A program made the translations under genes and the position numbers. DNA of 41,889 bases from an uncultured Solirubrobacteraceae bacterium. Its GTDB lineage: Bacteria; Actinomycetota; Thermoleophilia; Solirubrobacterales; Solirubrobacteraceae. This document shows, piece by piece, positions 30,085 through 35,067 of this stretch. Every line of letters begins with the position of its first letter. Within the stretch, counting starts at the first letter, position 1. The notes below the pieces were generated by a model. It searched no databases. It worked only from the letters and a program-made list of their open reading frames with translations, and was not told the DNA's origin. The stretch is from the NCBI GenBank assembly GCA_902806175.1, contig CADCVQ010000175.1:1-41889 (forward strand), in the 5' to 3' direction.

Positions 30085-31464
30085 CTACGAGGAGCCACGG
30101 CGCTTGCGCTCGGCGTAGCCCTCGATGTTCGTCTGGCGCTCCCGCGCCACGCCCAGCGCCCCCGGTGGGACGTTCTTCGTGATGGCGGAGTTGGCCGCCG
30201 TGAAGGCGTCGTCGCCGAGCGTGACGGGCGCGATCAGCGTCGTGTCGACGCTCGTGTGGACGCGGTCGCCGATCGTCGTGCGGTGCTTGTTGACGCCGTC
30301 GTAGTTGGCGGTGATCGTCGCGGCGCCGATGTTCGTGTCCTCGCCGATGTCGGCGTCGCCGATGTAGGACAGGTGCGGGACCTTGCTGCCGGGGCCGACA
30401 TCGGAGTTCTTGATCTCGACGAACGTGCCGGCCTTGGAGCGCTCGCGCAGGATTGTCCCGGGCCGCAGGTACGCAAACGGCCCGACGGTGGCCTTGGACT
30501 CGATCTCGGCTTGCACGACGTAGGAGTGCGGGATCGCGACCTCGTCGTGCAGCGTGGCGTCGATCAGCGTGGTCAGCGGGCCGACGGTGCAGCCGCGCCC
30601 GATCGTCGTGGCGCCGCGCAGAAACGAGCTGGGCTCGACGACGGTGTCCGGGCCGATCTGCACGCCGACGTCGATCAGCGTCGCGGCCGGGTCGATGATC
30701 GTCACGCCCGCGTGGCCATGGGCGGCGTGGATGCGCCCCTGCGCGATGGCGCGGACCTGCGCGAGCTGGACGCGGTCGTTGACGCCGAGCGCCTCCTCGG
30801 GGTCCTGCAGCACGTAGGCGCCGACGGTGAGACCGCGGCCGCGCAGCGCGGGCAGGACGTCGGGCAGGTACAGCTCGCCCTGGGCGTTGTCGGCCTCGAG
30901 CTCCTGCAGCGCGACGCGCAGCGCCGAGCTGTCGAACGCGAAGATCGAGCTGTTGACCTCGTGGATCTGCAGCTGCTCGGCGCTGGCGTCGCCGGGCGTC
31001 TTCGTCTCGACGACGCGCTCGACGTCGCCGCCGGCGTCGCGCACGACGCGCCCGTAGCCGGTCGGGTCGGCGAGGATCATCGTGGCCATCGTCGCGGCGG
31101 CCTTGGCGGCCTCGTGGGCCGCAACGAGCTGCGCGATCGATGTGGCGCTGATCAGCGGCGCGTCGCCGGGCAGGACGACGACCGTCGTGTCAGCCTCGAG
31201 CTGCCCGGCCGCGGCCCGCACGGCGCCGCCGGTGCCGTTGGGGGCGGGCTGCACGACGGTGGTGACGCCCTGCGGCAGTTGCCCCTCCAGCGTGCGCGCG
31301 GGCGAGTCGACCACGACGACGCGCCGGGCGCCCGCCGCGTTCGCCGCCGCGATCGGCCACGCCACCAGCGGGCGTCCGCACAGCGGGTGCAGCATCTTCG
31401 GAAGCTCCGAGCGCATGCGGGTGCCCTGGCCGGCGGCGAGGATGACGGCGATGAGGCCTGGCAT
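30085..31464 (-). CDS. glmU: Bifunctional UDP-N-acetylglucosamine pyrophosphorylase / glucosamine-1-phosphate acetyltransferase
   Basis: The 459 residues start PGLIAVILAAGQGTRMRSEL with the uridyltransferase loop and continue PKMLHPLCGRPLVAW and GDAPLIS. The second half is a left-handed beta helix of hexapeptide repeats (for example ESKATVGPFAYLRPGT and IGEDTNIGAATITANYDG) with the acetyl-CoA site. It makes UDP-GlcNAc for peptidoglycan. Two in-frame ATGs exist, at 31476 and 31464. TATGGT sits 7 nt before the second, so 31464 is taken as the start; the first overlaps that hexamer. Confidence 0.98.
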   Translation of the reverse strand: MPGLIAVILAAGQGTRMRSELPKMLHPLCGRPLVAWPIAAANAAGARRVVVVDSPARTLEGQLPQGVTTVVQPAPNGTGGAVRAAAGQLEADTTVVVLPGDAPLISATSIAQLVAAHEAAKAAATMATMILADPTGYGRVVRDAGGDVERVVETKTPGDASAEQLQIHEVNSSIFAFDSSALRVALQELEADNAQGELYLPDVLPALRGRGLTVGAYVLQDPEEALGVNDRVQLAQVRAIAQGRIHAAHGHAGVTIIDPAATLIDVGVQIGPDTVVEPSSFLRGATTIGRGCTVGPLTTLIDATLHDEVAIPHSYVVQAEIESKATVGPFAYLRPGTILRERSKAGTFVEIKNSDVGPGSKVPHLSYIGDADIGEDTNIGAATITANYDGVNKHRTTIGDRVHTSVDTTLIAPVTLGDDAFTAANSAITKNVPPGALGVARERQTNIEGYAERKRRGSS

Positions 31465-31471
31465 GGGCAGA

Positions 31472-31477
31472 ACCATA
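31472..31477 (-). promoter_or_regulatory. -10 element TATGGT of glmU
   Basis: It is seven bases from the ATG at 31464. It includes part of the alternative ATG codon, which it therefore argues against. Confidence 0.5.
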
Positions 31478-31487
31478 TGCGAGGCCG

Positions 31488-31991
31488 TCAGCGCGGCAGA
31501 TGCTTATGCGTGCGACCGAGCCGCAGGTCGTAGATGCACCACACGCTCGTGCCGAACCGTGCGGCGACCTCACGCACGCTGCAGCCGCAGCCCAGCATCG
31601 CGAGGGCGTCGCCCGCACGAGCATCGTTCAACAATGTGACAGGTCTGGGCTCGTAGCTCGCGACGGCACGATCGATCTGCGTCTGGCGCCGACTGCCCAT
31701 CAGCGGCCGCAATGCCGTCATCCATGCCACCGCCTTGGCGCCCGTGACGCGAGCGATGTAGGTCGGTTGCCACCGTGCCTCGCGTGGCGTCCAGCAGCTG
31801 GCCTTGCGGCCGAACATCGTCGCCACTCTGACGACCACGTCCTCGTCCGTCATCTGGACGGCGAGCACCGGGTGTCGGGGCGCGCTCGGTGGCCCTGTGA
31901 GAAACGTTCCCTCCCCTTCGAGCAACCCCGCAAGCCAATGCAGATCTTCGCTCGGGACGTTGTCCGGGAAGCCGGGGGTCGCCGTCGTCAT
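31488..31991 (-). CDS. Free-standing LAGLIDADG homing-endonuclease-like protein with C-terminal helix-turn-helix
   Basis: The 167-residue product starts near a single LAGLIDADG-type motif, HWLAGLLEGEGTFLTG (about residues 18-33), with the acidic residue in place for metal binding. HPVLAVQMTDEDVVVRVATM and YIARVTGAKAVAWMTALRPL follow as in this fold. Its last 40 residues (GCGCSVREVAARFGTSVWCI, then GRTHKHLP) form the helix-turn-helix often appended to these proteins. One motif implies action as a homodimer. No intron or intein host is visible; it is free-standing beside and divergent from tRNA-Gln. A perfect SOS-type palindrome abuts the start codon. GC content looks somewhat lower than in neighbouring genes, suggesting transfer. 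It could also act as a regulator related to WhiA rather than as a nuclease. Confidence 0.8.
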   Translation of the reverse strand: MTTATPGFPDNVPSEDLHWLAGLLEGEGTFLTGPPSAPRHPVLAVQMTDEDVVVRVATMFGRKASCWTPREARWQPTYIARVTGAKAVAWMTALRPLMGSRRQTQIDRAVASYEPRPVTLLNDARAGDALAMLGCGCSVREVAARFGTSVWCIYDLRLGRTHKHLPR

Positions 31992-32009
31992 TGCGAACAC
32001 ATGTTCGCA
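31992..32009. promoter_or_regulatory. SOS (LexA) box-like palindrome at the start codon
   Basis: The 18-bp sequence TGCGAACA-CA-TGTTCGCA is a perfect dyad containing CGAAC-N4-GTTCG, the LexA box of Bacillus and actinobacteria. It ends at the base before the ATG at 31991. A -10-like GAACAT on the minus strand lies within it, so LexA binding would block transcription directly. Confidence 0.75.
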
Positions 32010-32047
32010 CACCGTTCGGACGGTCCCCGCGCCGAGGGATGCTCGGC

Positions 32048-32053
32048 TATCTT
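32048..32053 (+). promoter_or_regulatory. -10 element TATCTT for tRNA-Gln
   Basis: It lies 25 nt before the mature tRNA 5' end and leaves a leader of about 18 nt. It lies 39 bp from the SOS-type box of the divergent gene. Confidence 0.4.
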
Positions 32054-32078
32054 GATGAAGGCCGAAGGGCCGATTTAC

Positions 32079-32150
32079 TGAGGAGTGGTGTAATCGGTAG
32101 CACACCTGGTTTTGGTCCAGGCAGTCCGGGTTCAAGTCCTGGCTCCTCAG
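32079..32150 (+). tRNA. tRNA-Gln(UUG)
   Basis: TGAGGAG (32079-32085) pairs with CTCCTCA (32143-32149), with discriminator G. The anticodon stem CCTGG/CCAGG encloses TTTTGGT, anticodon TTG. The T arm is CCGGG-TTCAAGT-CCTGG. The length is 72 nt, with no encoded CCA. It reads CAA and, by wobble, CAG. Confidence 0.96.
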
Positions 32151-32195
32151 CTCGCCGGCACCAAGACTGCGTGCTCTTCGCATTCTCCGCGCCGG

Positions 32196-35067
32196 TCAGC
32201 GCAGCGGCCGCACGATCGCCAGCGGCAGGCGCTGCACCGCCGCAGGGCCCGACGTCCCGCGCGCGGTGACGACGAGCCCATAGCGGCCCGTTGCGAGCTT
32301 CTTCAACTGCGCGGACGCGAGCGCGACGACGTTCGGGCCGGTCGTCCCCCGCGCGACGACGTTCACCACGCGCTTGCGGCCGCGGAAGATCTCGACCTGC
32401 AGCGCCGCGGGACGGTTGAGCGCGAGGCGTACGAGCACCGGCCGGCGCGCTAGCGCCACGCCGCGTTCTATCACGAGGTTCGCCTGCAGCCCGACGATCA
32501 TCGTGTCGAGCGTGGACGGGGCGACCGTGGTCACCATCTCGCCCGTCGTGACGGTGGCGCTCGAGCCCGGCACGAACTGGCGAGCCTGCAGCGTGTGTCG
32601 GCCGGCATGCAGGATCGGCAGCCGGAACGCCGCCGGGCACGCCTCCCACGGCGCGCCGTCGATGCCGGCATTCGAACCTCCCCCCGTACGGCTGCGGGCT
32701 CGCGGTCCCCGAGAGGGCAACCTCCGCGCGCGCCCCCGCGAACGTCGCGAGGCCGGCATCGCGGCCCTGGAAACCCTGGCCGTGGCGCGGGATCGGAAAC
32801 CACACGATGTGCGGGTCGATATTGCCGGCGCTGTCGACCGCCCGTGCGGAGACTGAGATGTCGCGCGCCACCTTGGAGTGGCTGGCGCAGGGAAACCATG
32901 GTGCAGGCCCGCCCGGCAGCCCCGCTGCGAGACCCGGCGCCGGTGCCGCCGTCGATGCGGGGCCCGGCACCACCGGTACGCCACCGGGCGCAAAGCACTC
33001 GAACGTGCCCGGCTTGTCGGAGCCCATCACGACGGTCGGACGCAGGTCGCCGTCGGCCGGCAGCCACACGAGCGCGACCGTCTTCGGAAGGCGCGCATCG
33101 ACAACGAACGTCAGCACCGCCGGCGCGGCCGTCGTCGCCGAAGCGGGCGTGCGCGCGGATCGTCGCGGCGTCGAGCGCGCGGTCGTACAGCGCGATCTCG
33201 TCGATTGCGCCCAACCAGCCGCGGTACTGATCGCCGAAGGCTCTGCCGAGGTACCAGTAGCGCGCCGGGCTGGTGTCGAGGACCCGCTGCGCCGGCCCTT
33301 CGGCGACGACCTCGCCGTCGATCGACAGCGCGATCCGCTCCGGGCTACGCGTGAGCGCCAGGTGGTGCCAGGCGTGGCCCAGGTTCAGCGGCGGCGTGCG
33401 CAGCTCGACGGCGCCGCTGCCGGAGGACGCGCCGATCGTCGCGCGCAACGAGTTGTCGGCCTCGCTGACCAGCAGGACCCCGACCGCGGGATCGCTGACA
33501 GACGGCGTGGCGTTGAGGATCGCACGCCGGCCGCTGCCGCCCGACCGAACCTAACCCTCGAACGTGAACGCGTCGCCGCGCAGGACGGCATCCAACACCC
33601 CCATGCTGACATCGGCATGCTCGCCCACCTCGAACGCCGCATCGCCGTCGTCGGTGACACCGCGCGCAGGCGACACACCCGTGTTGTAGTAGCCGCGAGA
33701 CCCCGTGATCCGGTCGGCGCTCGCGCCCGTCTGTACGTACGAGCTGGCCGGCAGCTCGCTCTTGCCCAGGCGCCACCAGTGCCGCAGGCCGGGCGTCCCC
33801 GCGACGAGCTCCGCGTACGTGGAAGCCTCTCCCGCCGCGGTCGCGGTCACGCGAGCGGGTGCAGTTGCGCGGGTGCGCCGCAGCGGCTTGCCGATCACGC
33901 GCTCGCAGTTGCGGCTGACGGTGTCAGCGCGATCGACGTGGGCGACGTCATGGCCCTTGCCGCAGTCGAGCGTCACGCGCGCCGGACCACGCGCGTAGAT
34001 CGTGTCGTGTCCGTCGCCGGCACGCACGACGTTCGTCCCGCCCCCGCGCAACCGCACGGTGTCGGCGCCCGCGCCGCCCCGGATGACGTTCTCGCCGAGC
34101 CCGCCCTCGAGGAAGTCGTCGCCGTCGCCGCCGGAGATCCGTTGTGGTCCCGGCCCGCCGTAGACCGTGTCGTCGCCGGCCCCGGCGTCGATGACGTCGG
34201 GCAGCGCGGAGGTCAGGCCGGCCTGGCGCAGGCCCCACAGCACGTCGTTGCCATCGCGGCCGCGCAACGTGTCGGCGCCCGGCCCACCGAGCAGGACGTC
34301 ATCCAGCGCGGTGCCCTCGCGCGTGCCGCCCGCGTCCTTCGCCAGGTACGTCACACCGCGGTTGGGATCCTGTACGGCGTCGGTGAGCTGTACGACCTCG
34401 CAGTCCTGCGACCGCGTGCCCGCCGTCCCGGGCCCCGCGTAGTCCGCCGTCACCGACGGCGGGACCGTCAGGTAGACCGTGTCGGGCCGGGGCCGCACGT
34501 CACGTGCGCATAGGCCGAGCCATCGACGACGATGACGTCATCGCCGAGCCCGCCGACAATCGCGTCGCCGCCGCTGTCGGCGAAGATCCGGTCGTTGCCG
34601 GGCCCGCCGTCGATGCGATCGATGCCCGACCCCCCGTGCACGACATCGTCGCCGGCGCCGCCGAAGATCGTGTCCCTGTCCTGGTCGCCGTTGAGCGCGT
34701 CGCCGCCAGGTCCGCCGTTGAGCCCGTCGGCGCCGAACCCGCCGCTGGCGATGTCGTCGCCGTCTCCGCCGACGAGGGCGTCGTTGCCCGATCCCCCGGT
34801 CAGCGTGTCGCTGCCCGATCCGCCCGAGACGACGTCTGGCCCGGTATCGCCCGTCAGCAGGTCGCTTCCGCCGCGGCCGTACACCCGGTCGTGGCCCTCG
34901 GCGCCGCGCAGAAAGTCCGCGCCGCTGCCGCCGCGCAGCGTGTTGGCTCCGAAGCCGCCCGAGCGCGGCGGGCCCCAGGCGACGGCGACGGCGCTCGGCC
35001 CCGCGACGAGCGCAAGCAGAGCCACGGCCAGAATCCGAGCAGTGACATGGGAGGGAGATCTGCGCAT
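32196..35067 (-). pseudogene. Degraded RTX-repeat / LamG-domain secreted protein
   Basis: About 957 codons can be followed from an ATG at 35067 to a TGA at 32196, but only across four lesions. The order is signal peptide (ILAVALLALVAGPSAVA), about ten RTX calcium-binding nonapeptides of the GGxGxDxLx type, a short link, a second RTX block, a concanavalin/LamG-like domain (LRHWWRLG ... GGWLGAIDEIALYDRALDAA region) and a C-terminal beta domain. The lesions are a one-base loss at about 34484-34487, a TAG at 33551-33553 where Trp is expected after FTFEG, an indel at 33131-33143, and a six-C run at 32680-32685 where five restores frame. The intact ancestor was probably a large surface or extracellular adhesin. 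The genes around it are intact, which argues against general sequencing error. Confidence 0.8.

Follow-up and report, generated by a model that had tools for sequence, protein, structure and literature searches.

The window, meaning the whole 41,889-nucleotide stretch of DNA from an uncultured Solirubrobacteraceae bacterium that was analyzed, carries on its reverse strand an open reading frame for a 167-residue LAGLIDADG-HTH protein (P0001; 31488..31991, (-)). Based on the frame itself, its homologues and its predicted fold, the product is a putative free-standing homing endonuclease. The frame begins 2 bp past CGAACATGTGTTCG and is divergent from a tRNA-Gln(TTG) gene (32079..32151, (+); ARAGORN), its proposed target and partner. 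An 18-bp palindrome, TGCGAACACATGTTCGCA (31992..32009), abuts the ATG and holds the LexA core CGAAC-N4-GTTCG (31994-32007). Upstream of this box, sequence comparison picked out a CCGTCCG element (32017..32023, (-)) that resembles a -35 hexamer and is a candidate promoter element. On the other side, glmU (30085..31476, (-)) follows the stop codon of the nuclease gene after 11 bp. Because glmU is expected to be essential and sits this close to the stop (31476-31491), its promoter may lie inside or before the putatively LexA-repressed gene. Beyond the tRNA, about 3 kb (32196-35067) separate tRNA-Gln from an MTA-phosphorylase-like gene. This segment is missing in the same-genus genome G001, and it holds reading frames with laminin-G and RTX calcium-binding repeats that are apparently frameshifted.

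Used as a single query, the 167-residue protein matched no family in Pfam or NCBIfam. It matched two PHROGs, one of them annotated as HNH endonuclease, and gave no match in viral sequences, although an alignment query did. The LAGLIDADG assignment was therefore made from the Pfam matches of its homologues, a PDB profile match and the predicted fold. PF14528 (LAGLIDADG_3) was found in 22 of 46 homologues and PF00961 in five, assorted HTH models matched the C-terminus of the family, and the PDB profile search returned I-HjeMI/I-AniI at 4e-5. An AlphaFold2 model, computed from an alignment from which phage and plasmid rows were left out, has a mean pLDDT of 95 and the element order helix-strand-strand-helix-strand-strand-helix followed by a three-helix HTH; the first part is the LAGLIDADG core fold (alpha-beta-beta-alpha-beta-beta-alpha). 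The top structural match of the model in VIA-align is I-CreI (Z 12.0, rmsd 2.0, 97 residues aligned). The single LAGLIDADG motif, WLAGLLEGEGTF (31902..31937, (-); residues 19-30), was placed by homologue alignment, and the C-terminal tri-helical HTH domain (31518..31625, (-); residues 123-158) by AlphaFold2 secondary structure and the HTH Pfam matches in homologues. W19, A21, G22, E25, E27, F30 and R102 are invariant among the 46 homologues. Judging from the motif, E27 would stand at the position of the catalytic Asp20 of I-CreI. An earlier note on this DNA, made from the letters alone, had described the gene as a free-standing, single-motif LAGLIDADG protein with an appended HTH, and both the homologues and the predicted fold bear this out. 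The protein shares with I-CreI, I-MsoI and I-CvuI the fold (Z ~11-12 over 96-99 residues) and the single motif, and would be expected to form a homodimer. That group is intron-encoded and organellar, however, whereas the window protein is not in an intron, has the extra HTH and reads LLEGEG in place of FVDGDG.

A bacterial LAGLIDADG fold joined to an HTH is also the design of WhiA, and the protein could in principle be a domesticated, non-cutting DNA-binding regulator of this kind, damage-induced and with tRNA-Gln or other promoters as its targets. WhiA shares the two-part architecture and is among the structural matches (8dy9, Z 7.9, but with an rmsd of 12.6), and the HTH is retained in tRNA-linked relatives. 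We nevertheless think a regulator distinctly unlikely: E25, E27 and R102 are invariant in the 46 homologues, as expected of an enzyme, and a patchy presence with an unrelated HNH gene substituting at the same tRNA (see below) is ill-suited to a resident regulator. WhiA itself is a conserved resident transcription factor, whereas the window gene is patchily distributed and linked to tRNA genes, and its product retains the acidic motif residues. Identity with WhiA was rejected given those residues and the absence of the gene from same-genus genomes.

The core at 31994-32007 is the only perfect match to CGAAC-N4-GTTCG within the window. A position weight matrix made in this analysis from such boxes scores it at 25.5 bits, equal to the dinB box, while the second-best site in the window reaches 10.7 bits. 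The probability of finding a perfect core by chance in the 87 bp that separate the start codon from the tRNA is about 3e-4. The 4.12-Mb genome as a whole contains 16 perfect cores and 13 matches to a reversed control pattern. The raw count is thus no evidence and was dropped as an argument, and the position of boxes and the identity of the genes behind them were used instead. In a genome scan, the strongest-scoring boxes belonged to lexA, dinB, an imuB-like gene (a Y-family polymerase), dnaE2, an Rv2578c-family gene (radical SAM), uvrA and a second HTH gene. The lexA box lies 60 bp upstream of its ATG, and most SOS-gene boxes lie a few bases from their start codons. A CCGTCCG-like element about 8-25 bp before the box is common to lexA, the Rv2578c-family gene, dnaE2 (as CCGTCTG), the window gene and most of the HNH genes described below. 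One further top-scoring box (25.5 bits; L002 1006-1019, G000 C7) has no clear gene behind it.

Because the same box precedes lexA itself and several classical SOS genes, we count it as that of LexA. The operator of the nuclease gene matches theirs and sits at the promoter, and LexA control of the gene is, on this motif evidence, well supported. The earlier note had proposed a perfect LexA-type box ending at the base before the start codon, which is confirmed for the palindrome at 31992-32009, and had raised the possibility that LexA of this organism recognizes a different motif, which is contradicted by the box shared between lexA and the classical SOS genes. Its interpretation held up in part, and its main idea, DNA-damage control, has independent evidence behind it. 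The motif places the gene in one regulon with lexA, dinB, the imuB-like gene, dnaE2 and the Rv2578c-family gene. Of the two genes that note had suggested inspecting, lexA has the box and recA does not (no LexA-like box within ~3.5 kb upstream; L183, L214). Since the box leaves no space for a Shine-Dalgarno sequence before the ATG, the message is probably leaderless. Our literature search found no paper combining LexA, its binding motif and Thermoleophilia. Endonuclease-type genes do occur in an actinobacterial LexA regulon, namely the SOS-regulated 13E12-repeat HNH proteins of Mycobacterium tuberculosis, for which we know of no tRNA link.

In each of the six same-genus genomes, glmU and tRNA-Gln are direct neighbors, ~40-100 bp apart, so that the site 5' of the tRNA is empty. 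Apart from one weak partial match, a full homologue of the nuclease gene is absent from these six and from 54 further family and order genomes. Full-length copies were found in only two of 299 class genomes, this one and Miltoncostaea oceani (G161), where the copy is on an 816-kb plasmid within a run of tRNA genes; this distribution puts the window in or near the class Thermoleophilia. As judged from these comparisons, the nuclease gene is a newcomer at the locus. The earlier note had regarded the tRNA as a landing site for mobile DNA. This was not upheld: no integrase was found among the reading frames listed around the locus, and a search of the window for a duplicate of the tRNA-Gln 3' end, with up to three mismatches allowed, found none. 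An integrase-borne tRNA-site element was rejected on these grounds. The tRNA appears to be the partner of this gene class rather than an integrase landing site, and its role is larger than that note assumed.

The same tRNA is flanked in relatives by a different, boxed gene. In three same-genus genomes (G002, G003 and G005), an HNH endonuclease gene has a LexA box at its start, immediately 3' of tRNA-Gln. Two family mates have a boxed HNH gene between glmU and tRNA-Gln: that of G015 is divergent from the tRNA, in the same slot and direction as the window gene, and that of G014 is in tandem with it. These genes have HTH-like ends, and PF01844 was matched in the G015 homologue. Among 60 relatives searched, 27 of 27 distinct HNH loci (28 rows, one gene being split in two) flank tRNA-Gln, with anticodon TTG in 16 cases and CTG in 11, and in both orientations. 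A box with at most one mismatch was present at 25 of the 27. The distance from box to start is 0-5 nt, and the layout of CCGTCCG, box and start is common to the window gene and the HNH genes at tRNA-Gln. More distant HNH relatives in other Actinomycetota stand just before tRNA-Leu at 21 of 25 loci (L364-L388), without a LexA box, and some of these are tandem HNH pairs. Phage relatives of the family lie in tRNA clusters, one of them annotated F-TflIV. We found no paper joining LexA, an HNH endonuclease and tRNA-Gln.

These HNH loci raise the question of whether the tRNA matters to the window gene at all. It could be a neutral safe harbor, the gene having simply dropped behind the existing SOS promoter of an earlier HNH element. 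The shared promoter layout, the HNH gene of G015 in the identical slot and orientation, and the lack of a box in homologues of the window gene elsewhere would all agree with this. Yet those unboxed homologues in other phyla also stand by tRNA genes, from which it follows that the tRNA matters to the gene itself, and a purely neutral harbor is in our view very unlikely. Promoter capture is a separate matter. An HNH element may have left its SOS promoter at tRNA-Gln for the nuclease gene to acquire, and such a capture is compatible with the explanation we prefer, that of a tRNA-associated homing endonuclease.

Across phyla, 31 of 43 homologues with the HTH have a tRNA or tmRNA gene within 500 bp, versus 1 of 90 without it (Fisher p 2e-19, for loci that are not phylogenetically independent and with an HTH profile built mostly from tRNA-linked loci). 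For example, Chloroflexota homologues stand by tRNA-His, those of Myxococcus phage Mx1, an Acidobacteria bin and a viral contig directly follow tmRNA, and others are inside phage and plasmid tRNA arrays. In Mycobacterium phage JPickles, the homologue frame runs out of tRNA-His (L020 2303-2465) with no ATG, GTG or TTG between the tRNA and the LAGLIDADG motif, and a protein beginning at the annotated start (2465) lacks the motif. Whereas the window protein has one motif, several homologues, found on plasmids of Miltoncostaea and Variovorax and in Chloroflexota, carry two motifs and two HTHs in a tandem fusion. PLSDB lists no gene at the double proteins of the Miltoncostaea/Variovorax megaplasmids (L021 3371-4477, L022 3308-4462). 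The tandem forms lend support to an obligate dimer, as though the two subunits of a homodimer had been joined into a single polypeptide. None of the homologues of other phyla and phages has CGAAC-N4-GTTCG at a plausible position, and the LexA wiring therefore belongs to this lineage. The question of the earlier note whether homologues keep both box and tRNA-Gln thus found a divided answer: no ortholog exists in the genus, family or order mates searched and the LAGLIDADG-HTH homologues elsewhere are unboxed, while the box is retained by the HNH genes at the same tRNA, which are not homologous.

A strict link to one tRNA isotype would also be expected if the protein were an RNA-directed enzyme that cleaves or matures tRNA-Gln itself as a damage-induced brake on translation. 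Some LAGLIDADG proteins are RNA maturases, with bI3 among the structural matches, and a tRNA-cleaving defense system exists in Septu, which acts on tRNA-Tyr (PMC13096335). A trans-acting ribonuclease, on the other hand, requires no linkage of its gene to its tRNA. Linkage on both sides and in both orientations better fits a partner at the DNA level, and the appended HTH is typical of DNA binding. We consider an activity on RNA highly improbable.

Association with a single tRNA gene extends to a third family. Located 3' of tRNA-Glu(TTC), a gene that encodes an N-terminal HTH_23 domain (G000 C81:22620-23309; L007 805-1494 (-)) is boxed at its start, and its homologues in G004, G041 and G044 (L180-L182) are likewise boxed and beside tRNA-Glu(TTC). 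All four have the box, one with a mismatch; two are in tandem with the tRNA and two divergent. The C-terminal domain of this family has no family assignment and may be LAGLIDADG-like. A profile comparison aligned the HTH alone and gave no confirmation, so the family was not accepted as another LAGLIDADG protein. The tRNA-Glu genes of G001 and G005, which lack the element, are identical to each other; that of G000, where the element is present, shows 86 percent identity to them.

When 22 isoacceptors were compared within the genus, tRNA-Gln(TTG) diverged most, with a mean identity of 0.77, followed by tRNA-Val(TAC) at 0.80; the other 20 range from 0.90 to 1.0. In genus pairs across the order, the identity of tRNA-Gln is often 0.65-0.73, compared with 0.96-1.0 for a few control tRNAs, which are the best-scoring ones and hence a biased set. 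G043 and G056 have no element nearby and show tRNA-Gln identities of 0.73 and 0.70, as divergent as pairs with an element, and hypervariability was therefore rejected as a direct mark of current elements. The variability fits repeated replacement or escape and is only a hint of it, because element-free pairs show it too and the controls were picked by score. It would be accounted for by a cleave-and-rescue arrangement, in which an SOS-fired nuclease destroys the ordinary, essential tRNA-Gln gene and the diverged tRNA-Gln next to it acts as an immune replacement. We regard such an arrangement as tentative and rather unlikely.

The explanation we favor, at a probability of roughly two in three, is that the gene encodes an SOS-inducible, free-standing homing endonuclease that lives beside tRNA-Gln(TTG) and works in the manner of SegB. 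It draws on the sequence, the box, regulon membership by motif, the empty sites, the HNH replacement, the tRNA linkage and the predicted fold. LexA would repress the gene by binding the box, which overlaps the promoter and reaches right up to the start codon. Induction, and with it cutting, would occur only upon DNA damage, when RecA and the recombination functions are available. Like I-CreI, the protein would bind DNA as a homodimer formed through its LAGLIDADG helix, the HTH would supply further DNA contacts, and cleavage would fall on element-free tRNA-Gln alleles or on the flank of such alleles. The target would thus be in or next to the tRNA gene, and homing would follow when recombinational repair from an occupied allele copies the nuclease gene together with its tRNA-Gln into the cut one. 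Several observations speak against this explanation: with the gene beside and not within the tRNA, protection of the occupied allele from its own enzyme is left unaccounted for, the homologues elsewhere are unboxed, there is no nearby ortholog to compare and recA is without a box.

Free-standing endonucleases of phage tRNA arrays are already known. The nearest case studied is SegB of phages T4/T6, a GIY-YIG enzyme of the phage tRNA region that cuts within tRNA genes at the motif RAWTSGAAC and causes the tRNA segment to be inherited or amplified (PMC13096335). Like the window gene, SegB is free-standing and beside tRNA genes. It differs in being a phage GIY-YIG enzyme with no LexA control reported, whereas the window gene is LAGLIDADG, chromosomal and next to a single tRNA that is its putative target. 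Identity with SegB was rejected, since the protein lacks a GIY-YIG nuclease domain and both fold and motif are LAGLIDADG; the similarity is one of setting only. Among the coding genes of mycobacterial tRNA arrays, that for an HNH endonuclease is the most widespread (PMC5966550). Relatives of the HNH family described here occur in phage tRNA clusters, and the F-TflIV-type heg genes of T5-like phages are another known parallel. The known HNH arrays of mycobacteria, plasmids and phages have many tRNAs on mobile genomes, while here single chromosomal tRNA-Gln or tRNA-Glu genes are combined with a LexA box. We found no report of such a LexA-wired chromosomal version in the literature.

Single chromosomal tRNA-Gln and tRNA-Glu genes repeatedly flanked by different LexA-wired families of endonuclease type would constitute a new setting for these enzymes. 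The locus links homing, the SOS response and the hypervariability of tRNA-Gln in the order. If our reading is true, selfish or defensive nucleases would here be aimed at essential tRNA genes and triggered by DNA damage.
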